Notes under the pieces: generated by a model
What the model saw: only the letters and a program-made list of their open reading frames with translations
Told to the model about the DNA's origin: nothing
Database searches by the model: none
Part shown: positions 575 through 61,207 of the stretch, in pieces
How the letters are laid out: each line of letters begins with the position of its first letter
Position numbering within the stretch: the first letter of the stretch is position 1
Assembly (NCBI GenBank): GCA_017468365.1
Contig: JAFUIS010000017.1
Location: 28,436 to 92,435, forward strand
Length of the DNA: 64,000 bases
Source of the DNA: Oscillospiraceae bacterium
GTDB taxonomy: Bacteria; Bacillota; Clostridia; Oscillospirales; Ruminococcaceae
Direction of reading: 5' to 3'
Translations under genes and position numbers: made by a program

Positions 575-3500
575 TTATACCGAAAGTTCCTTTCCGAACC
601 TGAAGGACCAGATGACGGTTTCAGAAACCGGTTTTCCCAGAGAAGCGGAAAGAAGTTCTTTATACATATGAAGCTGTGCGGAATAGCGGTTTCGAAGCTC
701 CTCCATATCCTCCACAAAGTCGGTTTTATAGTCGACGATGACGAGTTTTCCGTTTTCTTCAAAAACGCAGTCCGCAACACCCTGAACGGTTATTCTGTCG
801 TCTTCCGAAGCGCCTTCATAACCGAGCTTTGCGGCGGAAATTCCACGCAGGAACCGAAGTTCCCGCCAAACCTTATCCGCTTTTTCGATCCGGCGGTAAA
901 GTTCGCTTTCAAAAAAAGCCGCAACCTTTTTGGGGTCGATGACCTCCGCCTGTTTTTCGGTGATAAAGCGCTTTTGGGTAAGGCGTTTTATCTCGGCGGC
1001 GGGGTCGGATTTTGCCGCGGAAAAATCGCAGAACTGCATGAAGGTATGAAGGGCGGTGCCTCTTTCGGCGCCGGAAAGTTTTCCAAAGCCGGGCTTTGCC
1101 GCAAAAAGAAGCTTTTGGTGCATTTCGCCGTGGGTGAGGGAAGAAACGCCGGCTTTTACCGGAATCTTTTCGGAAGAAGCAAAGGGATAGACCCATTTTC
1201 CGCGTTCTTCAAGAATTTCAAGGGTCTTTTCGTCCAAAGGCGCCTTTTCGGTCTCTTCTTCGGTTTTTGCAGTTTCCGCCGTTTCAAAAGCGGACGAAAT
1301 CTCAAATTTCCATTTTGTTTCGTCCCAGATGACGCAGCTTTCGTCAAGACCCGCCGCAAGGCGAAGATCCTTTGCGTCAGGGTGACGGAGAAGGGAAGTG
1401 AAAATCCAGTCCGCTTCACAAATGGCTTTTGAAACCGCAAAGGGGTCGAGTTTTCTTCCGTATCGCGCGTCGGAAGCAAGGGAGCTCAGATATTTCGCCG
1501 GGTCCTTTTTGCAGCAGGTTATAACAAGGTTTTCTTTTGCCCTTGTGAGCGCGACGTAAAGTATCCTCATCTCTTCCGCAAGGGAAAGACGGCGAATCTC
1601 AAGTTTGAGCGCCTGTTGGGGAACGGTTGCAAAGCGAACACCGGTTTTGGGGTCGCGCCTTGCGCAGGCAAAACCGAGAGAAGGATGCAAAAGCGGAAGA
1701 TCGGTGCGGGTATCGACTTTGAATTTTTTGCCGGTGCCGCAAAGGAAAACCACCGGAAATTCAAGGCCTTTTGAACCGTGGACGGACATTATCCTTACGG
1801 AATCGCCGCCGTTTCCGACTGTTCCGGCAGGCGAAAGGTCGTCGTCCCTTTCCTCAAGCCTTGTTATAAAGCGAAGGAAGGCGGAAAGTCCGTGGGAACC
1901 GGCGTCTTCACGGTCCGCGGCGTATTTGAGAAGAAGGCGAAGGTTCGAAAGTCTGAGCTCGCCGTCATCAAGGCTGCGCATTATCTGGGGGAAAGCAGTA
2001 GCGTCATAAAGCCGCTCTATGACCTCGTCGCTTCGTTCATAAGCCGCCGCACTTCTGAGGGAATCGAGAGTGCGGATAAAATCCGCGGCTTTTTCGTTTC
2101 CGTTTTCGGCGGCGGTCTTAACGGAAGTATAAAGCGGGCATTTTTTATTTTCGCTGCGCATCACCGCAAGGTCGTCCGGGGTGAAAAGGAACATTTCCGA
2201 AAGCATTGCGCCCGCAAGAGGAATATCCAGAAGGGGGTTATCCACCGCTTTAAGAACGTCGGTCACCGCCCGTATCTCCGGACGGGTAAGAAAGCCTTTT
2301 CCTTTTTCACTGCGGCAGTTTATGCCCAGCTTTCGAAGAGCATCGATATAAACGTCGCCCTGTCCTTTCATGGAGCGAAGCAGGATACAGATGTCGGAAT
2401 AGCGCATTGGGCGCACCGAATCCTTGTCCGAAACCGGGGTTCCCCTTAATACCATATTATATATACGCTGTGCCACAAAAGCGGCTTCGGTTTTAACGGC
2501 ATCTTCGTCCGCGGGAATGATTACAGCTTCGTTGCGGCAAAGTCCGTCTTCGGGGAACGAAGCTTCGGGAATAAGCATTTCTTCCTCGCCGTAATCCATT
2601 TCGGCGGCTTCGGTGCTCATTATCTGTTCAAAGATATAGTTGACCGCGCCGGCAATGCTTTTTCTGCTGCGGTAGTTGCGGCCGAGAATTATTGTGGCAG
2701 GGAAATTTTCGCCGTCAAAAAGGGGCCAGAGGCGGCGTTTTTCAAGAAAAAGCTCGGGCATCGCCTGACGGAAGCGGTAGATGCTCTGCTTTACGTCGCC
2801 GACAAAAAACTGGTTGCCGGCTTTGCCGACCATATCGAAAATGGTGCTCTGTACCTTGTTGATATCCTGACATTCGTCCACCAGAAGATAGTCGAAACGG
2901 TCCGAAACGGCCCTTGCCACTTCGGAGGGGACTATCTTTCCGTTTTCATCTTTTTCGGTGAGCACCGAAACGGTCATCTGTTCAAGGTCGGGAAAATCCA
3001 AAAGCCTTTTTTCGCGCTTCATCGAAGAAAAAAGGCGGTCGTAGTCCAAAGTAAGCTCAAAAAGGCATTTTATCTTTGGATAAAGGTCGGCAATATCTTC
3101 ACAAAATTCCTCTTCGGTGGCGGAAAATTCATCTTTCAGCTTGGTGACGGTCTTTTTATATTCCTCGCGGCAGGCCTTGACTCTGTCTTTGAGCACGCCG
3201 CCCATGCCTTTTTTCGAAGGCATGGTCATGAACTTTGCAAGAGAAAGTTCTTTTACAAAATCGTTCCAGCTTCCGCTTTCACAGCGGCCCAGAAGCTTCT
3301 CAAAAAGGAAGATATCGTCCGCAAACATTGGGATGTAGATGTCGAAAGGCTCTTCGCCGCATTCCTCGCTCATATATTTCGCCATGGCGATGTTGCGTTT
3401 GAGCACCGATGCCGCATGGGAAAGAAGAATCTTTCCCCAGGCGGTGCTTCCGGCAGGCACCGAAGGGTCATACATGGCCGCTTTTTCAGAAAGCCAGTCC

Positions 3501-4078
3501 TCATAATGGGGAAGGGCGCGGACAAATTTATGGAGCGTGAGCACCGCGTTTTCAAGGTTGTCGTCGTTTCGTCCTGCGCCAAGGGTTTCGGCAATTTCCT
3601 CAAAGACCGGGGAATGCATGGAATAGTATTTTTCAATGGTTTCCTCAAGGGCGGCGGACGAAATATCCATAAGTTCGTTGTCGTCCGCAATGCGGGAATC
3701 CGGCGTAAGACCTAAAGCGCTGAAGTTTTCACGCACTATGTCGAAGCAAAAAGAATGGATAGTGCCGATATGAGCACGCTCCATAAGAAGAAGCTGGCGC
3801 GAAAGACGCGCGTCATGGGGGTTTTTTGCCGCAAGTTCAGAAAGTTCGGCGTTTATCCTGGCTTTCATCTCCGCCGCGGCAAGATTTGTAAAGGTCACCA
3901 CCAAAAGACGGTCCGCATCAACCGGGTCATGCTCACGGGTGAGCATGTTGGCAACGCGTTTTACAAGAACGGCGGTTTTTCCGGAACCTGCCGCCGCAGA
4001 AACAAGAAGGTTTCCGCCGAAGGAGTTCATTGCCAAAAGCTGGTCCGGGTTCCAATTACGCTCAGCCAAGTTCCTCAC
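575..4078 (-). CDS. addA: AddA helicase-nuclease subunit
   Basis: Catalytic helicase-nuclease subunit of AddAB, which processes double-strand breaks for RecA loading. At 1167 residues it is close to the usual ~1200. UvrD-type motifs run in order: Walker A GSGKTAVLVKR near residue 31, Walker B VDECQDIN, GDVKQSIYRFRQA, HGSKGLEF and ALTRAKENLVI. A C-terminal RecB-type nuclease motif follows, with DYKTDF. It overlaps the end of addB by 17 bases. The start is either GTG at 4078 or, with better spacing (AGGCGG plus 8 bases), TTG at 4069, giving MAERNWNPDQ. The close overlap implies translational coupling with addB. Confidence 0.95.
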   Translation of the reverse strand: MRNLAERNWNPDQLLAMNSFGGNLLVSAAAGSGKTAVLVKRVANMLTREHDPVDADRLLVVTFTNLAAAEMKARINAELSELAAKNPHDARLSRQLLLMERAHIGTIHSFCFDIVRENFSALGLTPDSRIADDNELMDISSAALEETIEKYYSMHSPVFEEIAETLGAGRNDDNLENAVLTLHKFVRALPHYEDWLSEKAAMYDPSVPAGSTAWGKILLSHAASVLKRNIAMAKYMSEECGEEPFDIYIPMFADDIFLFEKLLGRCESGSWNDFVKELSLAKFMTMPSKKGMGGVLKDRVKACREEYKKTVTKLKDEFSATEEEFCEDIADLYPKIKCLFELTLDYDRLFSSMKREKRLLDFPDLEQMTVSVLTEKDENGKIVPSEVARAVSDRFDYLLVDECQDINKVQSTIFDMVGKAGNQFFVGDVKQSIYRFRQAMPELFLEKRRLWPLFDGENFPATIILGRNYRSRKSIAGAVNYIFEQIMSTEAAEMDYGEEEMLIPEASFPEDGLCRNEAVIIPADEDAVKTEAAFVAQRIYNMVLRGTPVSDKDSVRPMRYSDICILLRSMKGQGDVYIDALRKLGINCRSEKGKGFLTRPEIRAVTDVLKAVDNPLLDIPLAGAMLSEMFLFTPDDLAVMRSENKKCPLYTSVKTAAENGNEKAADFIRTLDSLRSAAAYERSDEVIERLYDATAFPQIMRSLDDGELRLSNLRLLLKYAADREDAGSHGLSAFLRFITRLEERDDDLSPAGTVGNGGDSVRIMSVHGSKGLEFPVVFLCGTGKKFKVDTRTDLPLLHPSLGFACARRDPKTGVRFATVPQQALKLEIRRLSLAEEMRILYVALTRAKENLVITCCKKDPAKYLSSLASDARYGRKLDPFAVSKAICEADWIFTSLLRHPDAKDLRLAAGLDESCVIWDETKWKFEISSAFETAETAKTEEETEKAPLDEKTLEILEERGKWVYPFASSEKIPVKAGVSSLTHGEMHQKLLFAAKPGFGKLSGAERGTALHTFMQFCDFSAAKSDPAAEIKRLTQKRFITEKQAEVIDPKKVAAFFESELYRRIEKADKVWRELRFLRGISAAKLGYEGASEDDRITVQGVADCVFEENGKLVIVDYKTDFVEDMEELRNRYSAQLHMYKELLSASLGKPVSETVIWSFRFGKELSV

Positions 4079-7000
4079 CGCCTTTCACAAGCTTATAAAA
4101 TTCATCGTTGGCAAAGGAAAGATGCTCGTTCATGGGTTCGTTTTCGCTTCGGCGGCAAACCGCTTTATACGAGCACCAGTCGCAGGAGGTTTTGTCCTTT
4201 TTGCGATAGGGCAATGCGGAAATTCTGCCTTCCGAAAGCTCCGTTGCCATTTCGATGAGCAGTGAATCCACATGGGATTTTATCTTTCCCAGTTCCGCAA
4301 TGCTCGCGACGGAACCTTTATAGGTGCCGTTTTTGCCGGAAACGGGGATAAAAATGCCTTTAAGGCCCGGTTCCATTGCGTTGAGCACGTCCGGATCGTC
4401 AAGAAGAAGCCCGTTCATGCGGAACTTCTTCTGAAGTTCCGCCGCGACCTTTTCGGGTTCGGCGTTCCTGCTCATGGTGGAGGGGGAATCCTTTGCCGGC
4501 ATATAAAGAACGCCCGCAGGGGTGGAACCGGAAAGGTTTCCGCTTCCGTTTTCCCAAATGGAAAAGAGGTAAACGAGCATCTGGATGTTTATTCCGTAGA
4601 AAACGTCGCAAAGTTCAAAGGTTTTTGAACCGGATTTGTAGTCAACGACCCTTACGTAACGGCTGCCGTTTTTGTTGAGCACGTCCACGCGGTCGATAAT
4701 GCCCTCAACGGAAATTTCGATTCCGTCCGGTGTAACAAGGCGGTAAAAACCGGCTTCGGAACCGCTTTTTACGGGCATTTCAAAGGCATACGGCTCGAAT
4801 TCCGAAACGGCAAATTCGTTTCCGATGCGGCGGATGAGCCTTGTTAAAAAGCCTGCAATGCGGCGATAAAGACACATGAACCTTGCGGTTTTGTCCTTTT
4901 CGCTGTTCATGAAGTCGTCAAGATAGGCTTTGAGCACGGCGTCTATCTCTGCCCGAAGTTCGGCATCCGAAAGTTTTGAAATTCCGCTTCCGCCGTGGGC
5001 AAAAATTATCTTCTGAAGGGCAAAATGGATAAGCGAACCCGCGGAAAGAGGTGAAAGTTCCGCCTTGCGGCGGTCTTTGAGCATGAGCCCTGCGCCGATG
5101 AAATAGGAGAAGGGGCACTGTTCATAGGTTTCGATCCTTGAGGGCGAAAGACGGAACCTTTCACCGAAGAGTTTTCGCGCATTTTGGGGGTCGGTTATAG
5201 AAAATTCCGAAGGAAGGACCGGTTTCCCAAGCTTTTGAGCACGGTCGTTCCAAAGTTCTTTTTTTGAAAGGTGTTTTCTTATGGCTTCGCCCTCGGGAAG
5301 AGAAGTTTTTCCGAAGGAGGCAAGACGTTCGAAGGCAAAACTTTCGCTGCAAAGCCAAAGTTCTTCGCCGAAGGACGAAACGGTTTTCTCTTCAAGGGGC
5401 AAAACCGCTTCTTTAAGCCGGCGGATGAGCACCGAAGGAGCGGCTTCCGCAGCAGCGATATCATAGCGGTGATAAAGGGCAAAAACCTTTTCCGAAGCGC
5501 TGGTAAAAGCGGTGTAGGCATACATCCTTTCTGAAAGAAGCGCATCGTTTTGTCCGTCGGAAACGTCAAGACCGTTTTCCTGCATCACACGGCGGTCCTC
5601 ATCGGTAAAGAGCGAGCCGTTTGAAGGCGGCGCCGGAAAAATTCCGTCGCAAAGGCCGAGAATGAAAACGATTTTTATATCCGAAGGGCGCATTCTGTCG
5701 GCAGTGCCGGCGGAAACGCAATCGAGAGTTTGGGGAAGAACGCCGATTTTCGATTCGGCGAGAACGAGTTCGAAAAGTTTTCCGAGGGTGCCTTCCTCAA
5801 GGCGTACTCCCTCGAGAGCAAAGGAAAACTTATCCAGCGCCGCCACAACGCAGTTCCAGAAGGAATCGAGTTTTTCCGCTTCGGAAATTTCGCCTTTTTC
5901 CGCAAAACCGTCGTAAAGGCGGCGCAGTCCTTCGGTCACTTCGCATTCGCAAAGATAATCGTAAAGTGCTTCGGAAAATTCCTTTCCGTCAGCGGAATAA
6001 AGACGGGTTTTAAGCTTTTCAAGGGGCATTATGACCTTTTCACGCAGAGAATTTATGCGCAAAAGGGCCTCTTCGTCAATTTCTCCGCGTTCGGTAAAGC
6101 CTTCGGGATTTCCGGTGAAGGGCGAAAGGAAAAGCTTTCCGCGGATATTCCAGATAAAGCAGTAGTTTTCGAATTCGGCGACCTCTTCTTCCGAAGCGGC
6201 AATGATGCCGGTTTTGAGGATGCGCATTATATCCGCAAGGGCAAAATTTCCGCGCACCGCAGAAAGCGAAGCGGAAATGAACGCGGAAAGGGGATGTGCC
6301 GAAAGGTCGGAAGTTCTGTCGAGATAAAGGGGCACTCCGGCTTTTTCAAAAGCACCCGGAAGGGCGTGTTCATAGGGCGAAAGGCTGCGCGCTATGACCG
6401 CCATATCCCGCCAGCGATAGCCCTCTTCCGCAAGCTGTCTTGCTTTTGCGGCAACAAAGTTTGCCTCCTCATAGGGGTCCGAGGCGCTTATGAGCACCAC
6501 TTCGCCCTTGTTTTCGCCTTTGGGCGAAGAACTGCGAAGAAAATTTTCTTCAAGGTCGATTATTCCTGCGGGGCGACGGTCGTTTTCCGTTTCGGCAAAA
6601 ACCGGAGTTTCCACCGAAACGCCGTTTTCCTTCGCAATGCGCTCAAGCCTTGAAGCGGTGCGCTGGGTCTTTGAAAAAAGACCGGTGCCGCCGGTTCTGT
6701 CATAGACGGAATCGCAGCAAAGGCTGATTTCCACCGTCGGGGACTGACGGATGACAGCGGTGAGAAGTTTGAATTCGCTTCCGGTAAAACCGGTGAAGTT
6801 ATCGATAAAAACGGCTTTTTTGCCAAAGAAATCATGTTCAAAAAGAATTTCGCAGGCGCGTTTTATATCCGAAAGGGGGTCGAGCCAGCTTTTTTCAAGC
6901 ATGGAATCATAAAGCTCGAAAACTGCGGAAAGGTCGGCGGCTTTTTCGCCAAGGGTGCCGCCTTTTTCAGAAAGGCGAAGAAGATCGGAAGAAGAAACTC

Positions 7001-12325: not shown

Positions 12326-14080
12326 TTATTTTTTTGCCCGGCGCATTTTTTCGATATATGCCGCAAGTTCCGCGCCGGAAAGTTCGCCGATTTCCTTATC
12401 GGTTTTCTTTTCTTTAAGGCGGGAAAGAGTTCTTGCCGCTTCGGCGGCATCTTCTGCGGAATACCGGTGCTCACGGGCGATATGTGCAAGGCGCGCGGCA
12501 ATGTTTTGCTGCTCAAGGGTAAAATCTTCACCGAAAAGCGTAAGCGAAACCTCTGCGCCGGTGCTCAAAGTACTCAGAAGCTTTTCATAAAAAAGCCGGT
12601 AAAGTTCACAGACAAGGTCCGAAGGCGAAACCAGCGTGCTCACGGTGCTCAAAGCCTCGGGATTTCTTATCAGCGCTCCGATAAGCCTTTCTTCCGCTGC
12701 GGCGGAAGCAGGATTTTTCAGTTTTTCCGGAACGGCGCCGGCAAAGGTGGTTGCCTGAACGCTTTGGCCGCTTATGGCCTTTGCGCCTTCGGCTCTTGCC
12801 CGGCGTTTGATCTTTGTCTGTACCTGAGCAAGGATTCCTTCCTTTGTGGTGCCGTAATCCCTTGCAAGTTTTGCCGCCCAGACTTCGCGTTCAAGCGGGT
12901 TTTTCATTCCCGCAAGAAGGTTCACCGCCTCTTTAAGGGCCATTATCTTGCCTTCGGGCGTTTCGGTGTCATATTTCGCGCCGATTTTTGAAAGTTCGTA
13001 TTCGGTGGAGCCGGCGCTTTGTTCAATAAGCTTTTTGAACCGCGTTCCGCCGAATTTTTTGATATATTCGTCCGGGTCTTTTGCGTCCGGGATCGAAAGC
13101 ACTTTTGTGCGGATGCCCACCTCGTCAAGAAGGGAAATGGCGCGCTTTGTCGCTTTCTGTCCTGCCTCGTCCGAGTCATAGGCAAGCACCGCTTCTTCAA
13201 CGTAGGAAGAGGCCAGCCTGCACTGGTCAGAGGTGAGCGAAGTTCCGAGAGAGGCCACCGCTTCGGTAAAGCCTGCCTGGTGCATTGCGATAACGTCCAT
13301 ATATCCTTCGCAAAGGATAAGATGATCGAGTTTTTGCTTTTTTGCAAAGTTCAGCGCAAAGAGGTTTTTGGTTTTCTTAAAAACCGGAGTATCCGGCGAG
13401 TTGTAATATTTCGGGCCGTCGCCGCTCATTTTTCTTCCGCCGAATCCGATAACGTTGCCCCTGAGGTCTATTATGGGGAACATGACTCTGTCACGGAAAA
13501 CGTCGTAATAACGGCCGCTTTTATTGCTCTTTCGTGAAAGCTGCGCCGCTTCCATATCCTCATAGCGATAGCCTTTTGAGGCAAGAAGGTCGGTGAGCCT
13601 TGTCCATTCATTTGGCGCATAGCCGAGGCCGAAATGCTTTATGGTCTTGGGCAAAAGTCCGCGCCCCAAAAGGTAATCCAGCGCTGCTTTTCCGCTTGGC
13701 TGCATAAGTTCGGAAAAATAAAACCTTGCAGCTTCCCGGTTCATTTCAAGAATTTTTGTTTTCAAAATCGCGGTCTTGTCTTCCGCCGCATCTTCCGGAA
13801 CGGTCATTCCCGCTCTTTGGGCAAGAAATTTTATTGCCTCGACGTATTCAAGGTTTTCTATCCTTCGGATGAAACCGATAACGTCGCCGCCGGCGCCGCA
13901 GCCGAAACAATAAAACGACTGGCTTTCGGGATAAACGGTGAAAGAACCGGTTTTTTCGGAATGGAACGGGCAAAGCCCGGTGGAGATCCTTCCGCGTTTT
14001 CGAAGCTGGACGTAGCTTGAAACGACGGATTCGATATCGCAGTTCATTTTAAGTTCTTCGATAAAACTTTGCGGAATCAC
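12326..14080 (-). CDS. dnaG: DNA primase
   Basis: Makes RNA primers for lagging-strand synthesis. 584 residues. The N-terminal CHC2 zinc site is CPFH...[11 protein letters not shown]. The TOPRIM catalytic core has [17 protein letters not shown] and [13 protein letters not shown]. The C-terminal third, which should bind DnaB, is less conserved. GTG 14080 has an AGGAGG seven bases upstream. Middle gene of dgt-dnaG-rpoD. Confidence 0.97.
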
Positions 14081-15751: not shown

Positions 15752-17557
15752 TCAGTCATCGTCAAGTTTGAGCACCGCCATAAAGGCTTCTTTCGGAAGC
15801 TCGACGGAGCCTATGCGGCGCATTTTCTTTTTACCTTCCTTCTGTTTTTCAAGAAGCTTCTTTTTACGGGAAATATCGCCGCCGTAGCATTTTGCAAGAA
15901 CGTCCTTGCGGAGTGCTTTGATGGTTTCGCGGGCGATTATCTTTCCGCCGATGGCTGCCTGGACCGGAACTTCGAAAAGCTGGCGGCTGATGTTATCGCG
16001 AAGACGCTCGACCATTCTTCTTGCTCTGGGATAGGCGTTATCCGCAAAGACCATCATGGAAAGGGCGTCGACCATTTCGCCGTTGAGAAGGACATCAAGT
16101 TTCACAAGCTTGCTGGCTTTGTATCCGCAGGGTTCATAATCGAAGGAAGCGTAACCTCTGGTGCGGCTTTTAAGCGCATCAAAAAAGTCATAGATTATTT
16201 CGCCCAGGGGAAGTTCGTAATGAACTTCGCAGCGGTCGGCTTCAAGATATTTGGTATCCTTATAAATTCCGCGGCGTTCCTGACAAAGCTCCATAATGCT
16301 TCCGATATACTGGGTGGGAGTAAAAATGGAAGCGCGGACATAAGGTTCTTCAGTGGAATCGATTATCGCCGGGTCGGGATAGTTGGTGGGGTTGTCAAGT
16401 TCAAGGGTGCGTCCGTCGTTGAGGTGAAGTTTGTAAACAACGCTGGGCGCGGTGGTGATAAGGTCAAGGTTATATTCGCGTTCAAGCCTCTCAAGGATTA
16501 CTTCCATGTGAAGAAGTCCAAGGAATCCGCAGCGGAAGCCGAAGCCCAGAGCGGCGGAAGTTTCGGGTTCAAAGCTCAGGGAAGCATCGTTAAGGATGAG
16601 TTTTTCAAGCGCGTCGCGAAGGTCGCCGTATTTTGCGCCGTCAAGGGGATAGATACCCGCATAGACCATGGGGTTGACCTTTTTGTAACCGGGAAGAGCC
16701 TCGGCTGCGGGATTTTCCGCAAGGGTAACGGTGTCGCCCACGGCGGTATCCGCAACGGTTTTGATGGAAGCGGTGATGTAACCGACTTCGCCGGCGCGAA
16801 GTTCTTCGCAGGGAACAAGGCGGGTGGCGCCCATATAGCCGATTTCGACGATGTCGAATTCGGCGCCGGTGGCCATCATTTTGATGCGGTCGCCGGAACG
16901 GAGAACGCCGTCAACGATTCGGACGTAAACGATTACGCCGCGGTAGCTGTCGTAAATGGAGTCAAAAATGAGCGCTTTGAGCGGGCCTTCGTCGTTGCCT
17001 TTCGGAGAAGGGATGCCTTCGACGATGGCTTCGAGCACGGAATGGATATTAACGCCGGTCTTTGCGGAGATCTGCGGAGCATCAAGAGCGGGGATTCCGA
17101 TGATGTCCTCGATTTCGTGCGCAACTCTGTCAGGGTCCGCAGCGGGAAGGTCGATTTTGTTGATGACCGGAACGATTTCGAGGTTGTGGTCAACGGCAAG
17201 ATAGGTGTTGGCAAGGGTCTGTGCCTCAACGCCCTGTGAAGCATCAACGATGAGCACCGCGCCTTCGCATGCTGCAAGAGAGCGCGAAACCTCATAGTTG
17301 AAGTCGACGTGTCCGGGAGTATCGATGAGGTTGAAAACATATTTGTTTCCGTCGTCGGCGGTATAGTCAAGACGCACCGCGCGGGATTTTATGGTGATTC
17401 CGCGTTCGCGTTCGATATCCATGTTGTCCAAAAGCTGCTCTTCCATTTCGCGGGGAGTTACTGCCTGGGTGTTTTCAAGGATTCGGTCGGCAAGGGTGGA
17501 TTTGCCGTGGTCGATATGTGCGATTATACAAAAGTTTCTTATGTTTTCGTTGGGCAT
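15752..17557 (-). CDS. lepA: Elongation factor 4 (LepA GTPase)
   Basis: Ribosome-associated GTPase affecting back-translocation or assembly, 601 residues, the usual length. The G1 motif is [16 protein letters not shown]2 lies in [14 protein letters not shown]3 in [17 protein letters not shown]4 is [10 protein letters not shown]. The LepA-specific C-terminus contains [20 protein letters not shown] and [22 protein letters not shown] 17557 follows AGGAGG at a longish 13 bases. No terminator follows; the RAYT gene starts on its stop codon. Confidence 0.98.
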
Positions 17558-22718: not shown

Positions 22719-23830
22719 GAGATAAAGATGTTCTCGGAATCATTGTCTGCAACATGCACGATGACCTAATTCCCCAGCTTACCGCCAGCCGTACTCTCGG
22801 TTCCATTCCTTTCGGCGGAAGATACAGAATGATCGACTTTGCCCTTTCCAACATGACCAACTCCGGAATCGAAGACGTGGGCCTTGTTCCAAGCAAGAAC
22901 TACCAGAGCCTTATGAACCACGTCGGTAACGGTCAGGAATGGGATATGTCCAGAAAAAACGGCGGCCTTTCAATTCTTCCGCCCTATGCGGGTGAACGCG
23001 GAGTTTACCGCGGAAGAATGGAAGCCCTTTACGGAATCCGCGAATACATAAAAGCAAGCGACGCCGCAAACGTTGTTCTTTCCGACAGCGACGTTGTTGC
23101 AAACATCGACCTTCGCCCTGTCATCCGCGAACACGAAGAAAGCGGCGCGGATATCACCCTTGTTTATAAATACAGCGAAGTTTTCAAAGAGAAAAAACAG
23201 TGCGCCGCACTCTTCTTTGACGAATGCGGAAAGCTTCTTGACCTTTATCTCAACCCCGAGCTTGACGGAAAACAGAACATCTATCTTGATATCGCAATAA
23301 TCAAGAAACCCGTTCTCGACGAACTTATTGCCGAATGTGCAAGCAAAGATGAGCACAGCTTTGTCCACAGCGTGCTCATGGCAAAAAAAGGCGTGCTCAA
23401 CATCCGCGGCTACCGTTTTGACGGCTGGTGCAACAAGCTCACCGGACTTCGCAACTATCTTGACGCAAACCTTGCCCTTCTTGATGCCGATGTAAGAAAA
23501 TCCCTCTTCCCGGCAGAAAGACCTATCTATACCAGAGTCCGCGACGAAGTTTCCGCAAAATACGGCGAAAACGCAAAAGTTTCCCGCACTCTTGTTACCG
23601 ACGGCTGCCACATTGACGGCGAAGTTGAAAACAGCGTTCTTTTCCGCGGCGCCACTATTGAAAAAGGCGCAAGCGTAAAAGGCTGCGTTCTTATGCACAA
23701 TGCATTCGTAGGCGAAGGTGCGACCCTTGAATGGGTAATCACCGACAAAAACGTTGTTATCCCCGCCGGAACCCACCTTGCCGGTTCCGAAAAATATCCG
23801 CTTTATATCCCGAAGGATACCGTCCTTTGA
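22715..23830 (+). CDS. glgD: Glucose-1-phosphate adenylyltransferase subunit GlgD
   Basis: Non-catalytic partner of GlgC found in Firmicutes, 371 residues. It keeps the nucleotidyltransferase outline ([34 protein letters not shown]) but the GGxGxRL signature is replaced by [16 protein letters not shown], as expected for GlgD. Hexapeptide repeats fill the C-terminus. ATG overlaps the glgC stop by four bases. Confidence 0.95.
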
Positions 23831-23857: not shown

Positions 23858-25276
23858 ATGAACGTTCTTTTTGCGGCAAGCGAAGCAAGACCTTTTATCG
23901 CTTCCGGCGGACTTGCAGACGTCATCGGCGCACTGCCGAAGGCTCTTAACGGCGCAGGCTGCGATTGCAGAGTCATTCTTCCGCTTTATTCCGATATTCC
24001 GGATAAGTTCCGCGCAGAGATGAAAAAAGTCTGTGACTTCAAAGTCTGGCTCGGTTGGAGAAACCAGTACTGCGGACTTTTTGAAACAAAGCTTTCGGGA
24101 GTCACTTTCTATTTCATCGACAATGAATATTACTTTGCAAGAAATGGAATTTACGGCCACTATGACGACGGCGAGCGCTTTGCCTATTTTTCCATGGCGG
24201 TGCTTGAAGCGGTAAAACATATGGATTTTGACCCCGAGGTCATCCATTGTCACGATTGGCAGACCGGACTTGTTCCCGTTTTTCTCAATCTTTTCTTTGC
24301 CGATGAGGAAAAACTTGCGAACACCAAAACCGTTTTCACCATCCACAATATCCAGTACCAGGGAAATTACGATATGTATTTTGCCGGCGACGTTCTCGGA
24401 ATTCCCGAAAACAGACGCGGACTTGTGGAATATGACGGCCGCTGCAACTTTATGAAAGCAGGCATCGACCTTTGCGATGCGGTTTCCACCGTAAGCCCCA
24501 CCTATGCGGAAGAAATTCAGGACCCCTGGTTTGCATGGGGACTTGACCGCCTTCTCAGAGAGAAAAAATATAAACTTTCCGGAATCCTCAATGGTATCGA
24601 CGTCGTAAGCTATGACCCCGTTTCCGACAAGGATATTCCCGCCACCTTCTCTAAATATGACCTTTCGGGCAAGGCAAAATGCAAGGAAGAACTCCAGAAA
24701 GAGCTTGGTCTTGCAGTTGATCCCGATTCCATGGTCATTGGGATGGTCGGAAGACTTGTTTCTCACAAAGGCCTTGACCTTGTAAGAGCCGTTTGCGACA
24801 GAATCCTTGAAATGCCGGTACAGATAGCGGTTCTCGGAAGCGGCGAATCCGCTTTCGAAAGCTTCTTCCGTTATATGCAGGAAAAATATCCCGGCAGAGT
24901 CAGCTTTGTCTGCGGATTCATTCCGCCCCTTGCAAGAAGGATCTATGCGGGTTCCGACGTTTTCCTTATGCCCAGCAAGAGCGAACCCTGCGGTCTTGCC
25001 CAGATGATCTCTCTTCGCTACGGAACCGTTCCGATAGTAAGAGAAACCGGCGGACTTAAAGATTCCATCAAGGATATCGGCGGAATCAAAGGCAACGGCT
25101 TCACCTTCCAGACTTATAATGCCGACGATATGCTCGACGCGGTGCGCCGTGCTCAAAACCTTTATTCCAACGGCGAAAGATGGAAAGAAGCGGTGCTCAA
25201 TGCCCTTTCCTGCGATTTCAGCTGGAACCGCAGTGCTCAGACCTATATCGGTCTTTATGAAAGCGTGCTCAAATAA
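23858..25276 (+). CDS. glgA: Glycogen synthase (ADP-glucose dependent)
   Basis: GT5 glucosyltransferase extending alpha-1,4 glucan, 472 residues. Visible features are MNVLFAASEARPFIASGGLA, IHCHDWQTGLVP, TIHNIQYQG, VSTVSPTYAEEIQ and the donor-site SEPCGLAQMISLRYGTVPIV. The N-terminal KxGG motif of classical GlgA reads ASGG here, with Ala where Lys contacts ADP-glucose. GGAGG precedes ATG. Last gene of the operon, ending at a strong terminator. Confidence 0.96.
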   Translation: MNVLFAASEARPFIASGGLADVIGALPKALNGAGCDCRVILPLYSDIPDKFRAEMKKVCDFKVWLGWRNQYCGLFETKLSGVTFYFIDNEYYFARNGIYGHYDDGERFAYFSMAVLEAVKHMDFDPEVIHCHDWQTGLVPVFLNLFFADEEKLANTKTVFTIHNIQYQGNYDMYFAGDVLGIPENRRGLVEYDGRCNFMKAGIDLCDAVSTVSPTYAEEIQDPWFAWGLDRLLREKKYKLSGILNGIDVVSYDPVSDKDIPATFSKYDLSGKAKCKEELQKELGLAVDPDSMVIGMVGRLVSHKGLDLVRAVCDRILEMPVQIAVLGSGESAFESFFRYMQEKYPGRVSFVCGFIPPLARRIYAGSDVFLMPSKSEPCGLAQMISLRYGTVPIVRETGGLKDSIKDIGGIKGNGFTFQTYNADDMLDAVRRAQNLYSNGERWKEAVLNALSCDFSWNRSAQTYIGLYESVLK

Positions 25277-38819: not shown

Positions 38820-40223
38820 TTGCTCTTTTCAAGCATACCTTTTCTTTATTATTTTCTTCCGCTGGTGCTGATTTGCTACTTTGCGGCGCCTAAAAAACTT
38901 AAAAACGCGGTGCTTTTTGTTTTCAGCCTTATTTTCTATGCCTGGGGCGAACCGCTTTACGTTTTTCTTATGGCGGCTTCAATAAGCCTTGCCTGGGGCT
39001 TCGGGCTTCTTATGGAAAGGGCAAAGGCCCAAAAGACGAAAAAAATCTTTATGATAATTTCCGTTGTAATAAGCTTTGCATTCCTTTGCTATTTCAAATA
39101 TGCGGACTTTTTTATTTCGAACTTCAATGCCGCCACCGGACTTTCGATACCGCTTTTAAGAGTTGCGCTTCCGGTGGGCATAAGCTTTTATACCTTCCAG
39201 ATAGCGAGTTATACCATTGACGTTTATCGCGGAACCGCCGCGGCAAAGCGCAATATCATCGACTTCGGAACCTATGTTGTGCTTTTCCCCCAGCTTATTG
39301 CGGGACCCATTGTTCGTTATAAGGATATCGCACAGCAGCTTGAAAGCCGCACCCACAGCCTTGAAAAAACCGCTTACGGAATCCAGAGATTCTGCATCGG
39401 TCTCGGCAAAAAAGTTCTTTTTGCGAACACCCTTGGCGAATTGGGAACGGTTTTCCGCGAAAGCGGTGAACAGACGGTTCTCTTTTACTGGATGTATGCG
39501 GTAAGCTTTGCGCTCCAGATATATTTTGACTTTTCCGGCTATTCCGATATGGCCATAGGTCTCGGAAGGATATTCGGCTTCACCTTCCTCGAAAACTTCG
39601 ATTTTCCGTTCATTTCGAAAAGCGTCACCGAATTCTGGAGAAGGTGGCATATGTCCCTTGGAAGCTGGTTCCGTGATTACGTTTATATTCCCCTTGGCGG
39701 AAACCGCGTTTCAAAACCCCGCTGGTTCCTTAACATTTTCGTTGTATGGTTCCTCACAGGTTTCTGGCACGGTGCCGACTGGCAGTTCATCGTCTGGGGC
39801 GTTTTTTACGGAACGCTTCTTGTAATCGAAAAACTCTGGCTTCTTAAAAAGCTTGAAAAACTTCCTTCGGTCATAGGTCACCTTTATGTCATCTTTGTGA
39901 CCCTTATCGGTTTCACCGTTTTCAACTCGGTGAACATCGGCGGAGCGATTGCCGACCTTAAAGGAATGTTCGGACTTTCGGGACTTCCTTTTGTTAACGA
40001 AGAGACCGTTTATTACCTTAAAAGCTATGCCCTCGTTCTGATTGCGGGTGCGGTGCTTTCCACCCCGGTGATAAAAAACCTTCTTCGCAAAATGAATGAA
40101 ACTCCCCTCGGCGCAAAAATTATTTCTTTTGCAAAACCCGTCGGCTTTGCGGCGGTGCTCATTATTGTTACCGGTTATCTTGTGGACGGTTCCTTTAACC
40201 CGTTCCTTTATTTCAGATTTTAA
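38820..40223 (+). CDS. MBOAT-family O-acyltransferase (AlgI/DltB-like)
   Basis: Polytopic membrane acyltransferase, 467 residues, about ten helices. The start LFSSIPFLYYFLPLVLICYF matches AlgI N-termini. Conserved catalytic parts are FPQLIAGPIVRYKDI, FWRRWHMSLGSWFRDYVYIP and FLTGFWHGADWQFIVWG with the invariant His. The TTG start 38820 lies 11 bases after GGAGG; the frame upstream to 38802 contains the ribosome site itself. Pairs with the next gene for O-acetylating a cell-surface glycan. Confidence 0.93.
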   Translation: MLFSSIPFLYYFLPLVLICYFAAPKKLKNAVLFVFSLIFYAWGEPLYVFLMAASISLAWGFGLLMERAKAQKTKKIFMIISVVISFAFLCYFKYADFFISNFNAATGLSIPLLRVALPVGISFYTFQIASYTIDVYRGTAAAKRNIIDFGTYVVLFPQLIAGPIVRYKDIAQQLESRTHSLEKTAYGIQRFCIGLGKKVLFANTLGELGTVFRESGEQTVLFYWMYAVSFALQIYFDFSGYSDMAIGLGRIFGFTFLENFDFPFISKSVTEFWRRWHMSLGSWFRDYVYIPLGGNRVSKPRWFLNIFVVWFLTGFWHGADWQFIVWGVFYGTLLVIEKLWLLKKLEKLPSVIGHLYVIFVTLIGFTVFNSVNIGGAIADLKGMFGLSGLPFVNEETVYYLKSYALVLIAGAVLSTPVIKNLLRKMNETPLGAKIISFAKPVGFAAVLIIVTGYLVDGSFNPFLYFRF

Positions 40224-40238
40224 AAAGGCGGTGCTGAT

Positions 40239-41342
40239 ATGAAGAAAAAAACAGAATATATCGTGACCGTCGTTTTAATGGCGGTGCTCATTTTCGGGTT
40301 CTTTGCCTTTGCGGTGCTCAAACCCGCGGATGATTTTTCCGAAAGTGAAAGACGTCCCCTTGATAAGTTCCCAAAACTCAGCTTTTCCACTGTTTTAAAA
40401 GGCGATTTTATGGACGGTTTCGAAAGCTATACTCTTGACCAGTTTCCCCTTCGCGATGCTTTTAGAAGCGTAAAAGCAATGGCAAGATATTACCTTTTCG
40501 GCCTTTCGGATAACAACGACCTTTATTTTGCCGACGGCCACGTTGCAAAGCTGGATTTTCCCGTTGACGAAAAATCCCTTGAATATGCCGTACAGCGTTT
40601 TAACGAGCTTTATTCCGCTTATATGGAAGGCAAAGCGAACAAGGTCGTCTTTTCCATGGTGCCGGATAAAGGTTTTTATCTCGGCGAAAAGAACGGCTAT
40701 CCGGTAATGGATTATGAATTCATGGCGAATTATTTTAAAGAAAACCTTTCTTTTGCCGAACACGCGGATATCACCGGTCTTCTTTCTGTCGACGATTATT
40801 ACAAGGCGGATACCCATTGGCAGCAGCAGAATATCACCGAAGTTTCGGAAAAACTTCTTTCCCTTCTGGGAGCAAAAAGCTTTGAGGACCTTGAAGAAGT
40901 TCTTGCCACCGAAAACTTTCACGGAGTTTATTACGGCCAAAGCGCTCTTCCTCTTCCGGCGGAAAAGATACTTTATCTCACTAATGCCAAGCTTGAAGCC
41001 ATGACCGTTTATAACTACGAAACCGGAAAAACCACCGGCATTTATGACTTTGAAAAGCTTGAAAGCAAAGACCCTTATGAATTCTATCTTTCCGGCGCGG
41101 CTTCGCTTCTTGAAGTTATCAACCCCGCCGGCGAAAGCGGAAAACATCTTATCATCTTCCGCGATTCCTTCGGTTCTTCCGTTGCGCCCCTTTTGATGAA
41201 CGATTATGAAAAAATAACCCTCATCGATACCCGCTATATCGCACCGGCGCTTATCGGAGAATACGTTGATTTTGAGGGTGCGGACGTTCTTATGCTTTAC
41301 AGCAGCCTTATTCTTAACGACGCATATATCTTCAAAAAATAA
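40239..41342 (+). CDS. DHHW-family extracytoplasmic acetylation protein
   Basis: 367 residues. N-terminal membrane anchor (YIVTVVLMAVLIFGFFAFAV), then an extracellular SGNH/AlgX-like domain with DYYKADTHWQQQNI (DxHW) and HLIIFRDSFGSSVAPLL, the serine-containing block. Members work with an MBOAT protein to pass acetyl groups to a surface polymer. It starts 15 bases after the MBOAT gene. Confidence 0.88.
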   Translation: MKKKTEYIVTVVLMAVLIFGFFAFAVLKPADDFSESERRPLDKFPKLSFSTVLKGDFMDGFESYTLDQFPLRDAFRSVKAMARYYLFGLSDNNDLYFADGHVAKLDFPVDEKSLEYAVQRFNELYSAYMEGKANKVVFSMVPDKGFYLGEKNGYPVMDYEFMANYFKENLSFAEHADITGLLSVDDYYKADTHWQQQNITEVSEKLLSLLGAKSFEDLEEVLATENFHGVYYGQSALPLPAEKILYLTNAKLEAMTVYNYETGKTTGIYDFEKLESKDPYEFYLSGAASLLEVINPAGESGKHLIIFRDSFGSSVAPLLMNDYEKITLIDTRYIAPALIGEYVDFEGADVLMLYSSLILNDAYIFKK

Positions 41343-44327: not shown

Positions 44328-44344
44328 GCTTTGAGCACGGATAA

Positions 44345-44378
44345 AAAATGAGCACCGCAAAGCGGTGCTCATTTTATT
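44345..44378. terminator. Terminator built from paired TGAGCAC motifs
   Basis: 11-base stem ATGAGCACCGC / GCGGTGCTCAT (44348-44358 with 44362-44372), A-run before and TTTTATTTT after. Serves the convergent deacetylase and lipoprotein genes. Confidence 0.85.
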
Positions 44379-46260: not shown

Positions 46261-46298
46261 AAAAAATTTGAGCACGGGTGCGCCGTGCTCAATATTTT
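46261..46298 (-). terminator. Terminator built from paired TGAGCAC motifs
   Basis: 10-base stem TTGAGCACGG / CCGTGCTCAA (46268-46277 with 46283-46292), followed by seven T on the minus strand, after the Tim44-like gene. Confidence 0.85.
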
Positions 46299-48057: not shown

Positions 48058-49231
48058 AAAATACTGTCTTTCGGATGAAGACATCGAAAAAGCATATGAA
48101 GATCTCCTTTTCAGAAGGGCAATGGCCCTTACCGCCGAAGAAGAAAGCCTTGAAATAGAGGAAGAGATCCTCGAAATGCCGCCTCTTTCCGAAGAGGACA
48201 TCGAGAGAAAGAAAAAAGAATTCGAAGCACTTCTTCAAAGAACCGTTGAAGCCCCCGAAAAAGAAAAAACCGAAGAACCCAAAAAGAAAAAAGGCATCAC
48301 TCTTGCCTTCGTCCTTAAAAAAGCCATTTCCGCCGCCGCAATGATAACCTTTGTGGCAATAATCTCCCTTTCAACCGTTGTTGTCGCTTCCGCGGACGCA
48401 AGAGAGATCGTAGCGGAATATATCTATTCCTTTGCCTATAACGAAGCGGGTCCCATTACCGAAATAAAACCCGCGGCGGATTCTGAAGACGAAACCGAAC
48501 AGGAAGAGCCCAAAAAAGAAAAAACTCTCGGCGAATGGGTCGCGACCTACGTTCCCGAAGGCTACGTCTTTGAAGGCGTCGAAGAGTTTTCCACCATGAA
48601 GATAACCGAATACAAAAAAGGCGAAGAGGACAGCATTTATCTCAACGAATCCGGACTTACCACCGTTGCCCACGTTGACACCGAAAACGCGGACTACGTC
48701 GAAAGAATCGTAATCGGCGAAAGCGAAGCCCTTCTTGTTGTCAAAAACGGCACCACCAGTATCGACTGGTGCACCGACGACACCTTCCTTTCAGTAATCG
48801 GCGGCGCGGATAAAAATGAAATGATTGCCTTTGCCCGCGGAGTAAAAAGAGCCGACGGAAAACGCAGCACCAAATTCGTCGACCAGGAAATTTATTCCTA
48901 TGACGATTCCTATGCGCCCACCTATATGACCAAAGGCTTCGTTCTCGGCAACATCTATGGCGAAAGCACCGACGATATCACCGTTGAATACAGCAACGGC
49001 GACAAGATGATAGTCATCGACCAGTTTACCGATGGAATCATGAGGATAGACGTTTCCGGCGCGGAAGTTAAAGAAAACGTAACAGTCGGCGAAAACAAAG
49101 CCCTGTTCATTATCAAAGACGGCGTTATTTCCGTAACCTGGGCGATAGAAAACCGCACCATTCACGTCTGGGGCAACGCAGACAGAGAAGAAATCATAAA
49201 AGTTGCCGAAAGCATTAAAAAAGTTGAATGA
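48044..49231 (+). CDS. DUF4367 membrane protein, candidate anti-sigma factor
   Basis: 395 residues. The N-terminal ~85 residues are acidic and helical (LSDEDIEKAYEDLLFRRAMA) and would face the cytoplasm. One membrane helix follows (ISAAAMITFVAIISLSTVVV). The extracytoplasmic part has two DUF4367-like copies, each with a YVERIVIGESEALLVVKNGT-type or VKENVTVGENKALFIIKDGV-type strand and a WxxxxxxxxVxG end. Cotranslated with the sigma gene, which suggests an anti-sigma role. AAAGGAGG precedes ATG. Confidence 0.82.
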   Translation: MSEDKKYCLSDEDIEKAYEDLLFRRAMALTAEEESLEIEEEILEMPPLSEEDIERKKKEFEALLQRTVEAPEKEKTEEPKKKKGITLAFVLKKAISAAAMITFVAIISLSTVVVASADAREIVAEYIYSFAYNEAGPITEIKPAADSEDETEQEEPKKEKTLGEWVATYVPEGYVFEGVEEFSTMKITEYKKGEEDSIYLNESGLTTVAHVDTENADYVERIVIGESEALLVVKNGTTSIDWCTDDTFLSVIGGADKNEMIAFARGVKRADGKRSTKFVDQEIYSYDDSYAPTYMTKGFVLGNIYGESTDDITVEYSNGDKMIVIDQFTDGIMRIDVSGAEVKENVTVGENKALFIIKDGVISVTWAIENRTIHVWGNADREEIIKVAESIKKVE

Positions 49232-49260
49232 GCACCGAAAAGCGGCGCTCACCGGATAAA

Positions 49261-49298
49261 ATCAAAAGCCCGTGCTCATTTGAGCACGGGCTTTTGAT
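49261..49298. terminator. Perfect palindromic terminator built from paired TGAGCAC motifs
   Basis: 18-base perfect arms with a two-base TT centre (49261-49278 with 49281-49298). The core is GCCCGTGCTCA / TGAGCACGGGC with A and T runs at the base. Serves the anti-sigma gene and hydA from both sides. Confidence 0.85.
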
Positions 49299-55805: not shown

Positions 55806-55830
55806 TGACTTCATAAAATACATAAAAAAC

Positions 55831-56026: not shown

Positions 56027-56064
56027 AACAAAGGGGATCTCTCCGGAGATTCCCTTTGTTTTTG
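56027..56064 (+). terminator. Second, duplicated-type terminator
   Basis: AACAAAGGGGATCTC / GAGATTCCCTTTGTT imperfect stem followed by T-run. It parallels the tRNA-Leu terminator in position and sequence. Confidence 0.75.
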
Positions 56065-56091
56065 AGCACGGGGATTTCTCCCGTGCTCAAA
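56061..56091. repeat. Hairpin of paired TGAGCAC motifs
   Basis: 12-base stem TTTGAGCACGGG / CCCGTGCTCAAA (56061-56072 with 56080-56091). No T-run follows on the plus strand. It lies after two terminators, so it has no gene left to terminate. Confidence 0.7.
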
Positions 56092-56130
56092 GCCTGAAAA
56101 GCCGTGCTCGTTTGTTCGCAAAAGCGACAT

Positions 56131-59773: not shown

Positions 59774-59775
59774 AA

Positions 59776-60088: not shown

Positions 60089-60117
60089 AGTATATCATAA
60101 GGAGCGGCGGTATGCAA
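60089..60117 (-). promoter_or_regulatory. Promoter of the small zinc-ribbon gene
   Basis: TTGCAT (60117-60112), 17-base spacer, TATACT (60094-60089), overlapping the 3' end of the DUF3810 gene. Confidence 0.6.
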
Positions 60118-61207
60118 GAAGCAAATCAACCATTTTTCCGTAGCTTCTCACTCCGTCTTTCTGGTCGTTGAGTTTAAGATAGGTGTCGTTGACCGCGTTT
60201 GAAACCTCGGCAACTTTCGTATCGTGGGCGTCGATATAGGCGTTTTGCGCCCTCATATCCGCGTCGAGATAGGGGGGATATTTTATCCGCAGTTCGTACC
60301 AGAGTTCATAATCCGCGGAATAAAGCGCGTTCATGGAGTGAAGAAGCGCAAAAGCCGTTCCGCTGTAACGGAAATAATCGTCGTCGCTTCTTATGCAGGC
60401 GAGATAGGCGATAAAATTCGCTTCCGACTCGTTCATGAATCCCCGAAGGTGGCTTTGTTCGTGCATCATGGTGGCGCCTTTAAGAAAATCGGGACCCGCG
60501 GTGTTTACGTTTGCTTCAAAAGTATAGGGCGAATAGACCCCGGAAATTTTAAGGTAAGCCATGGCTTCAGAAAAGAACACCGGTTTCGGCGTGCCGAATT
60601 TTCCGAATCCCATTTCCATAAAATCATAGCCGGCGGCAAAGTTTTCAAAATTTTCCTTTGCGCGCCGCGCCATATTAAAATCGGTCGGAGCAAAAACCGT
60701 TTCGCCGCTTTCTTTGTGGAGAAGGTTTTCGCCGTAAACGGCAGCTTCATCAAGAAGAAAAGCGCAAAGGTCATAAAGTTCCTCCGCGGAAGAATCCCTT
60801 GTTTCAAGACCGGTTTTTTCGGAAAAGCCTTCGCGGTAATAGTTCGTTCCGCTGAAAACCGCAAAAAGAAAAAATATCACGCAGGCTATGGAAACAATGT
60901 TTTTGAGCACGGAACAAAAATATTTGAGCACGGCAGATTTGCCTTCTTTTGCTTTGAGCACCAACCGGATCACCCATTCGGCAAGAAGCAAAACCGCCGA
61001 AAGTATTCCGGCTTCCATAAGCGAAAAAGGAAGGATTCCGGTGACGCTTCCGAAAATTCCGCCGAGGTTCTTATAGATTGCTTCGTAATACCAATCCGCA
61101 AAGCCGGAAACAAACCTTGCCGATGCCAAAAGGGCAAAGCCAAAGGGCAAAAGCAGCAGAAAATAAAAAAACGGCGTTTTTAAAAAATCTTTGATTTTTG
61201 TTTTCAT
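60095..61207 (-). CDS. DUF3810 membrane metallopeptidase-like protein
   Basis: 370 residues. Three N-terminal membrane helices (FFYFLLLLPFGFALLASAR, the LMEAGILSAVLLLAEWVI region, IVSIACVIFFLFAVF). The extracytoplasmic domain holds an HExxH site, KGATMMHEQSHLRGFMNE, followed by NESEANFIAYLAC with a likely third ligand Glu, so zinc protease activity is plausible. Three TGAGCAC copies fall between 60904 and 60962, in the third-helix region. Probably cotranscribed with the dipeptidase upstream. Confidence 0.85.
   Translation of the reverse strand: MKTKIKDFLKTPFFYFLLLLPFGFALLASARFVSGFADWYYEAIYKNLGGIFGSVTGILPFSLMEAGILSAVLLLAEWVIRLVLKAKEGKSAVLKYFCSVLKNIVSIACVIFFLFAVFSGTNYYREGFSEKTGLETRDSSAEELYDLCAFLLDEAAVYGENLLHKESGETVFAPTDFNMARRAKENFENFAAGYDFMEMGFGKFGTPKPVFFSEAMAYLKISGVYSPYTFEANVNTAGPDFLKGATMMHEQSHLRGFMNESEANFIAYLACIRSDDDYFRYSGTAFALLHSMNALYSADYELWYELRIKYPPYLDADMRAQNAYIDAHDTKVAEVSNAVNDTYLKLNDQKDGVRSYGKMVDLLLAYRRSL

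Follow-up and report, generated by a model that had tools for sequence, protein, structure and literature searches.

Helically phased arrays of the word TGAGCAC in an Oscillospiraceae genus as candidate docking sites for a putative nucleoid protein

EspR, a nucleoid-associated protein of Mycobacterium tuberculosis, recognizes the word TTTGC[TC][GA], which has 199 intergenic and 827 intragenic matches in the genome; the relevant passages of its description report cooperative multi-site binding, bridging and looping, an inverted pair of the form CAGCAAA<16>TTTGCTC, and the reading of hundreds of sites lying about equally within and between genes (PMC3315491). Here, we analyze the seven-base word TGAGCAC in a 64,000-nucleotide stretch of the genome of an uncultured gut Oscillospiraceae bacterium (GCA_017468365.1, contig JAFUIS010000017.1, positions 28,436 to 92,435; hereafter the window), in further samples of this genome, and in its genus, where the word is conserved in position and is grouped into arrays whose members lie whole helical turns (10.5 bp) apart. 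EspR is the closest working analogue of these arrays, as both involve a short, asymmetric 7-bp word with multiple sites in and between genes (here 116 arrays genic and 26 intergenic). The word and the phylum are not the same, EspR according to those passages additionally controls particular genes by binding upstream of them, and the term "helical" is absent from the text of PMC3315491.

Other described systems share some of these features. The Chi sites of AddAB and RecBCD are likewise short, asymmetric and over-represented, and AddAB is present here, whereas our word shows no long-range strand coherence. Chi is polar and is not known to be arranged in conserved helix-phased arrays. H-NS has two high-affinity sites at proV about 10 helical turns apart, which are termed helically phased and favour duplex bridging in the portion of PMC5418058 devoted to them; this phasing is the point of likeness, whereas proV is a regulated operon with an AT-rich motif and TGAGCAC is a genome-wide conserved word in core genes. 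The uptake signal sequences (USS) of Pasteurellaceae and the DNA uptake sequences (DUS) of Neisseriaceae are also genome-wide, on both strands, and both coding and non-coding, with no orientation bias and about 10% inverted repeats in the relevant part of PMC1939737. However, their hosts are transformable, whereas T2SSF is unmatched in 12 of 15 genomes here, and the pertinent passages of PMC1939737 and PMC3630211 mention dyad-symmetric DUS pairs, not helix-phased arrays. HIP1 of cyanobacteria is a highly over-represented word of debated function which, in excerpts of PMC4390886, is palindromic and methyltransferase-linked, in contrast to the asymmetric, phased TGAGCAC. The phased whole-turn arrays of TGAGCAC are a new finding here; no paper on TGAGCAC itself as a genome motif was found among open-licence PubMed Central papers, a scope from which absence from print cannot be demonstrated.

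Abundance, selection and conservation of the word

Both strands of the window together contain 50 exact copies of TGAGCAC, against a mean of 3.67 and a largest value of 10 in 100 dinucleotide shuffles and a first-order Markov expectation of 3.4. The initial annotation, made by eye, came close with about 48 copies, and its chance figure of about 8 was overgenerous; it rightly described most copies as continuing to TGAGCAC[C/G]G (35 of 50) and some long stretches as copy-free (e.g., none between 49,287 and 56,063). The source genome (G000; 1,863,548 bases in 33 contigs) holds 538 copies of TGAGCACSG (S, C or G), 265 forward and 273 reverse (contig orientation being arbitrary), and 2 of the mirror pattern read backwards, so that, as in uptake sequences, a short non-palindromic word is heavily over-represented on both strands. 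No other 7-mer is as over-represented as TGAGCAC in the 452,435 sampled bases (244 vs. 27.8 under a third-order Markov model), and the genome-wide comparison with Markov expectation that had been proposed as a check thus places the word far above it. The extended preference in this sample is TTTGAGCAC[C/G]G; the consensus is about TTTGAGCA[C/T][C/G]G, with a core YGAGCAY (Y, C or T), and TGAGCACCG is one concrete form of the site.

Genes were taken from our own caller, without curated annotation (409 called genes in the 452,435-base sample). Of the copies in this sample, 201 are coding and 43 are intergenic or at gene edges, corresponding to 0.51 per kb inside genes and 0.72 per kb between them, and the coding copies occupy all five frames that the TGA stop allows. 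After within-gene synonymous codon shuffling (60 shuffles), a mean of 29.1 and at most 38 coding copies remain, and each permitted frame exceeds the shuffle about 3- to 10-fold; other frequent coding words also exceed it, by about 3-fold (GGCGGAA, 289 vs. 89). The described use of GTG CTC for Val-Leu despite a preference for CTT is borne out, as GTG-CTC-A accounts for 110 of the 201 coding copies while 71% of Leu codons in the genome are CTT and 20% CTC. Because the excess over synonymous shuffling is found in all permitted frames, codon or codon-pair use is not its cause.

The word is restricted in abundance to one genus, represented by 15 draft genomes that are probably metagenome assemblies (73–98% complete). 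TGAGCACSG occurs 179 to 658 times in all 15 and at most 180 times in 105 other genomes of the order, these ranges touching because one member (G010) is a 1.0-Mb, 73% complete draft. By density, the word reaches at least 167 per Mb in all 15 genomes (lowest in G011, about 167) and at most 86 per Mb in the 105 others (highest in G072, about 86). A comparison with close relatives, also advised initially, therefore finds it enriched genus-wide and at lower density elsewhere in the order.

Positions of the word were compared in 26 window genes, 20 of which had usable orthologues. When G000 and another genus member share the amino acids that overlap the word, the word is identical too in 124 of 143 comparisons, against 33–47%, depending on codon phase, for any 7-base stretch; 19 further comparisons keep the word despite a changed overlapping amino acid, and in 73 both word and amino acid have changed. 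At conserved Val-Leu pairs, the codon pair is retained in 95 of 110 cases at word sites and in 106 of 224 at other Val-Leu pairs, and single codons outside the word are retained in 87 of 375 (GTG) and 317 of 847 (CTC) cases. GTGCTC not followed by A is kept in 171 of 218 cases among the other 12 genomes (0 of 5 against G000), which indicates that conservation reaches the core GAGCAC. The 12 genomes without a T2SSF match have an identical word in 944 of 1067 comparisons, each pair being counted both ways. In G011, which is distant and GC-rich (about 45% AddAB identity), 1 of 12 addAB sites is kept, with one site unaligned, and the word is still enriched (132 vs. 45.8). Together with the shuffling results, this conservation, including the Val-Leu contrast, leaves the excess unexplained by Val-Leu pair use and strongly supports selection on the TGAGCAC word itself, even inside genes, as had been proposed from its use in all permitted frames and in non-coding DNA.

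Four genomes of other genera were sampled as well (G072, 90.6 kb; G067, 84.3 kb; G020, 85.0 kb; G034, 26.0 kb). Some coding words there stand 3–7-fold over the synonymous shuffle, as codon-context words often do, such as GCAGCGCA in G067 (25 vs. 3.7, with 0 between genes), and no word in these four samples is prominent both inside and between genes. A separate observation in G072 (L107–L111) is CTATGTGG, found 18 times against 1.2 expected and outside the top coding words.

Helical phasing of neighbouring sites

Spacing was analyzed in the first sample (set A, 452,435 bases) and in 390,626 fresh bases (set B), together 843,061 bases. Neighbouring coding copies in set A are spaced near 11, 21, 30, 42, 63 and 84 bp, with a vector length (R) of 0.465 at 10.5 bp (n = 58; chance about 0.116), and the result was replicated in set B with the period fixed beforehand (R = 0.66, n = 54). 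Amphipathic helices have 3.6 residues per turn, or about 10.8 nt, and could therefore mimic phasing; Val-Leu pairs not written GTGCTC, which served as a control for this effect, give an R of 0.123 (n = 363). Same-frame pairs are the clearest (R = 0.75, n = 23 in set A; R = 0.70, n = 26 in set B).

The 995 sites with the core YGAGCAY in the combined bases extend this result to both orientations: for pairs 8–220 bp apart, R is 0.52 on the same strand (n = 491), 0.55 for +− pairs (n = 173), and 0.50 for −+ pairs (n = 155). The two inverted classes are shifted in opposite senses by unequal amounts (+0.16 and −0.08 turn; phases 0.16 and 0.92), a pattern expected if the centre of the site lies roughly 0.6 bp from the middle base. 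The offset used for combining orientations was estimated on the same data, and the same-strand result is independent of it. Phase is held to about 300 bp, with R values of 0.51, 0.59, 0.50 and 0.42 in successive bins to 300 bp, 0.23 at 300–400 bp, and 0.13 at 400–500 bp, and a weak, phase-shifted signal extends to 1 kb (R = 0.14–0.15). As Rayleigh probabilities assume independent pairs and are thus too small, we rely on a frame-preserving jitter by random multiples of three bases: none of 20,000 randomizations reaches the observed R of 0.527 for 235 neighbour pairs (largest null value, 0.200), nor that of 0.515 when one pair per kb cluster is kept (n = 116; 0 of 20,000).

An unbiased scan of 929 6-mers ranks TGAGCA first (−ln p = 101) and GAGCAC next (93), followed by overlapping pieces of the same word, with unrelated words at 8 or below. 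Next to exact sites, the variants CGAGCAC and TGAGCAT are likewise over-represented and in phase, and nine other frequent control words show no same-strand phasing. One unrelated phased 7-mer in G000, GCATCGG/CCGATGC (−ln p = 17), was rejected as a second phased word because it is a local repeat, with 36 of 44 pairs from two places; its repeats with 10.5-bp-like spacing lie in L140 and at the start of G000 C7:88001–108000. Phasing also holds for pairs that include a site found in a relative but missing from G000 (62 distinct pairs, R = 0.53), implying that new sites arise in register. The window alone gives an R of 0.54 for 70 pairs up to 300 bp. The G072, G067 and G020 samples contain no phased word above −ln p = 8; in the same test on ten 80-kb samples of G000, the word came first in 7 samples, second in another 2, and 36th in the remaining 1, so a similar system elsewhere would probably, though not surely, have been seen. 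A/T content around the sites shows no strong 10.5-bp signal.

Layout of the arrays

Arrays were defined as YGAGCAY sites at most 200 bp apart that include at least one exact copy. The 843 kb contain 170 such arrays, with a median of 3 sites and a median span of 132 bp, and 390 of the 457 exact copies lie within them. The number of arrays within one gene is close to random expectation (116 vs. 118), that between genes is higher (26 vs. 15), and only 3 arrays cross a 5′ gene end against 9.2 expected. Where both neighbours were called, the intergenic arrays comprise 9 convergent, 12 tandem and 2 divergent cases (n = 23). When merged within 1 kb, arrays lie on average 5.6 kb apart and are more evenly spaced than random (coefficient of variation, 0.62 vs. 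0.78 ± 0.07; 0.003 of 1000 simulations).

Annotated genes with arrays include addA, addB, dnaG, dnaB, recG, and genes for a RarA/MgsA-like ATPase and a DNA-repair radical SAM protein, all in DNA metabolism, as well as comEC, a T2SSF gene, and genes for tRNA maturation, cation ATPases and biosynthesis; as these genes were picked for high counts, no enrichment is claimed. The arrays and single copies of the window are as follows.

2613 (−), 2959 and 3190: single copies near the addA array
3400..3544, +: array of 2 exact TGAGCAC inside addA (575–4030, − strand)
3771..4682, unstranded: array of 9 YGAGCAY sites (exact at 3771, 4382 and 4676) spanning the addA/addB junction
4931..5432, +: array of 4 sites (exact at 4931, 5236 and 5426) inside addB (4062–7376, − strand)
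6491: single copy
12467..12651, −: array of 4 exact sites in the 3′ part of dnaG (12326–14080, − strand)
15769..17257, +: two single copies (15769 and 17251) in lepA (15752–17557, − strand)
20799: single copy
23350..23399, mixed strands: array of 3 exact sites (+, −, −; spacings 22 and 21) in an NTP-transferase/hexapeptide gene (22715–23830)
25130..25271, −: array of 5 sites (4 exact) at the 3′ end of a starch/glycogen-synthase-type gene (23858–25276)
29233..29290, −: intergenic array of 3 exact sites
33761..34051, unstranded: array of 3 exact sites in and beside a methyltransferase gene called at 33940–34638
34324..34455, unstranded: array of 2 exact sites in the same methyltransferase gene (33940–34638)
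40155..40320, −: array of 3 exact sites at the end of an MBOAT gene (38865–40223) and the start of a DHHW gene (40239–41342)
44332..44371, unstranded: array of 3 exact sites between convergent genes, its inverted pair forming a terminator-like hairpin
46269..46291, unstranded: inverted pair, an intergenic hairpin with AT-rich flanks
49229..49287, unstranded: array of 3 exact sites beginning at the 3′ edge of a called gene
56063..56110, unstranded: array of 2 exact sites and 1 variant, with an inverted pair, downstream of tRNA-Leu (55831–55915)
60904..60961, +: array of 3 exact sites (spacings 21 and 30) in a DUF3810 gene (60095–61150)

The addB copies at 4931, 5236 and 5426 are kept in 12, 12 and 8 of 13 aligned genus genomes, respectively, and all three places of the 23350..23399 array retain the word in 5 of 5. 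Intergenic hairpins made of word copies, described at the outset, are present, and several intergenic inverted pairs fit terminator hairpins at 3′ gene ends, but 116 of 170 arrays lie inside one gene. Copies placed initially in a T-box leader could not be upheld: no T-box in the window matches Rfam at the gathering threshold, and a search of 55,700–56,400 at E ≤ 0.1 returned only a tRNA (55,831–55,912), which adjoins the 56,063–56,110 array.

Some neighbouring features were also noted. A second family of terminator-like hairpins, with the stem AAAAGCACCGC...GCGGTGCTTTT (or GACACCGC...), occurs at 8448–8487 and 59773–59812, with related copies at 62765–62804 and 63567–63606, and its stem overlaps the 3′ half of the word; a related terminator stem, AAAAAGCACCGC, ranks with the leading 12-mers in the genome sample (23 vs. 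1.1). Two stretches within 62796–63727 resemble each other over 130 bp (85%), are spaced 802 bp apart and each have their own hairpin; they are probably tandem paralogous small genes. An inverted repeat between genes at 17669–17726 has 26-base arms that are 88% complementary and a 6-base loop, and its matches to small RNA families are weak, all below gathering scores. Among viral-collection contigs, 8 stretches match one phased-pair pattern, with 2–6 copies each at 0.14–0.63 per kb including the matched pair; four of them (L164, L165, L166 and L171) reach 0.42–0.63 per kb, near the G000 mean of 0.54, which weighs neither way.

A putative architectural reader and its alternatives

From the sequence evidence, we consider it reasonably probable that the arrays are docking platforms for a cooperatively binding, DNA-bridging, EspR-like nucleoid protein that organizes the chromosome. 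In this model, the word would be the binding site of a putative sequence-specific protein that docks on one face of the helix, its sites being grouped in arrays, whole helical turns apart and in either orientation, with phase held over about 300 bp. A multivalent protein would bind several in-phase sites cooperatively and, once bound, would bridge, loop or stiffen the DNA at the arrays, which recur every 5–6 kb on average, chiefly within genes and in intergenic hairpins on the 3′ side, and only rarely where genes have their 5′ ends. A protein touching one DNA face at several points would need just such features: an exact word in conserved positions, sites whole turns apart, and a phase that stays coherent along about 100 nm of DNA. 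The three phased orientation classes, the decay with distance and the jitter null give a site geometry compatible with cooperative or bridging binding on one face. That arrays are scarce at 5′ ends favours architecture over regulation. Of the three functions suggested initially, a chromosome-organizing signal therefore fits best, given the helical phasing, while a Chi-like role fits poorly with phased clusters and the lack of long-range strand coherence, and an uptake-like role with a word conserved where T2SSF is unmatched (12 of 15 genomes).

Several observations weigh against a docking protein. No reader protein was identified: when the 45 listed small basic proteins of the sample were ranked by codon bias, mostly ribosomal-type proteins came out on top, and inspection by eye yielded no candidate. 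ParB_N was considered as the reader and set aside, its matches being order-wide and not singling out the genus. Exact opposite-strand coding pairs are unphased in set A (R = 0.16, n = 22) and phased in set B (R = 0.70, n = 22); different-frame same-strand pairs are few (set A, R = 0.49, n = 13, p = 0.04; set B, R = 0.40, n = 6, not significant); and intergenic same-strand neighbours alone show no significant phasing (R = 0.29, n = 9; R = 0.31, n = 8). G011 shows weak phasing with different offsets (same strand, R = 0.22, n = 168; +−, 0.43, n = 58; −+, 0.27, n = 62). Moreover, 67 of the 457 exact copies lack a YGAGCAY partner within 200 bp, the evenness of spacing is not significant when arrays are merged within 300 bp (0.112 of simulations), and a called gene begins 13 bases downstream of one tandem intergenic array (C1 25578), so that 5′ regions are not wholly free of arrays. 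The fairly even spacing and the copies in DNA-metabolism genes would also fit an uptake-type signal.

Such a signal, a self-recognition tag of the USS/DUS type, would accumulate because word-bearing DNA is preferentially taken up or recombined, and would be maintained by exchange. This explanation, our first favourite, now seems unlikely. It would account for the density of the word (538 TGAGCACSG in 1.86 Mb), its presence on both strands and in all permitted frames, the inverted pairs in 3′ hairpins, the genus specificity, and the copies in the DNA-metabolism genes named above, comEC and the T2SSF gene. ComEC is found in all 15 genus genomes and short ComEA-like HHH_3 matches in 12 of 15, and overlapping dyad-symmetric DUS pairs in some Neisseriaceae have suggested dimer-based recognition (part of PMC3630211). 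The pilus machinery, however, is matched poorly: T2SSF was found in 3 of the 15 genomes (drafts 73–98% complete), T2SSE reaches at least 80 bits in the same 3, and the T2SSE matches in the other 12 are only short and partial, with 6 barely passing the cut-off, and are taken to be other ATPases. Since T2SSF is unmatched in 12 of 15 genomes and the word is conserved in those 12 (944 of 1067), pilus-dependent uptake is unlikely to be the maintaining force, a finding that lowered this explanation, although uptake by a non-pilus route may be. G011, which has the clearest pilus genes, has the lowest word density of the genus, and uptake of fragments does not predict helical phasing. In G000, a small T2SSF/DUF4860/T2SSE operon (L062:4741–8495, contig C23), whose T2SSF gene carries an array of 6 sites in 220 bp, is a possible minimal comG-type pilus.

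Regulatory operators are a similarly improbable explanation; in this case the word would be bound by a global transcription factor that serves as a roadblock or silencer for numerous genes. Conserved, phased, multi-site arrays are typical of cooperative regulators, and the intergenic array 13 bases upstream of a called gene would suit one. Expression may matter, in that genes with at least two copies seem less codon-biased (e.g., TTC makes up 0.39 vs. 0.51 of Phe codons, a descriptive comparison without significance test); the 23 most codon-biased of the 45 small basic proteins have 0 copies where about 5 would be expected from mean density, their genes being small. Nevertheless, the paucity of arrays across 5′ ends (3 of 170) and of divergent ones (2 of 23 intergenic arrays) speaks against operators, the annotated array genes have no evident common pathway, and about 170 arrays in 843 kb far exceed the usual regulon.

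A Chi-like recombination hotspot read by AddAB is very improbable. The window contains both addA and addB, which together carry 12 copies, ADDB_N is above the cut-off in 14 of 15 genus genomes, and a short, asymmetric, over-represented, mostly genic word resembles Chi; yet ADDB_N is also above the cut-off in 7 of 8 searched genomes of other families, which lack the word density. Neighbours more than 1.5 kb apart share a strand in 43 of 73 cases, a measure of neighbour strand and not of polarity relative to the replication origin, so that no polarity like that of Chi or of KOPS (FtsK-orienting polar sequences) is visible at that scale, and this absence of long-range strand coherence lowered the explanation. 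In the sampled contigs, GC skew seemed to track the strand of the genes and was therefore not used as a replication marker. Nor would one expect Chi to form conserved phased clusters or inverted pairs.

Finally, a by-product of codon use, terminator stems or protein periodicity could draw on the GTG-CTC-A readings, the common stem AAAAAGCACCGC, the weak periodicity of Val-Leu spacing, and the roughly 3-fold excess of other coding words, but is in our reading already refuted and scarcely worth considering, given the excess in all five permitted frames after synonymous shuffling, the Val-Leu control and conservation, the abolition of phasing by frame-preserving jitter, the phased opposite-strand pairs with opposed offsets, and the exceptional conservation of position.

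If the word were an uptake or exchange mark instead, it would be one maintained where T2SSF was not found and, to our knowledge, the first such word in Clostridia. Under architectural docking, many bacterial nucleoid proteins offer a useful contrast: they are believed to recognize DNA shape or AT richness and to demand little of the exact sequence, whereas here selection that outweighs codon choice keeps one exact word, helically in register, within the core genes of a whole genus. We tentatively suggest that this may amount to a chromatin-like positional code, in which hundreds of helix-phased arrays, selected against codon preference and conserved between species, would position a dedicated putative DNA-organizing protein about every 5–6 kb. 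If a structural protein reads the word, its sites would be predictable from sequence alone in most members of the genus, and sequence control of chromosome architecture would become directly testable.

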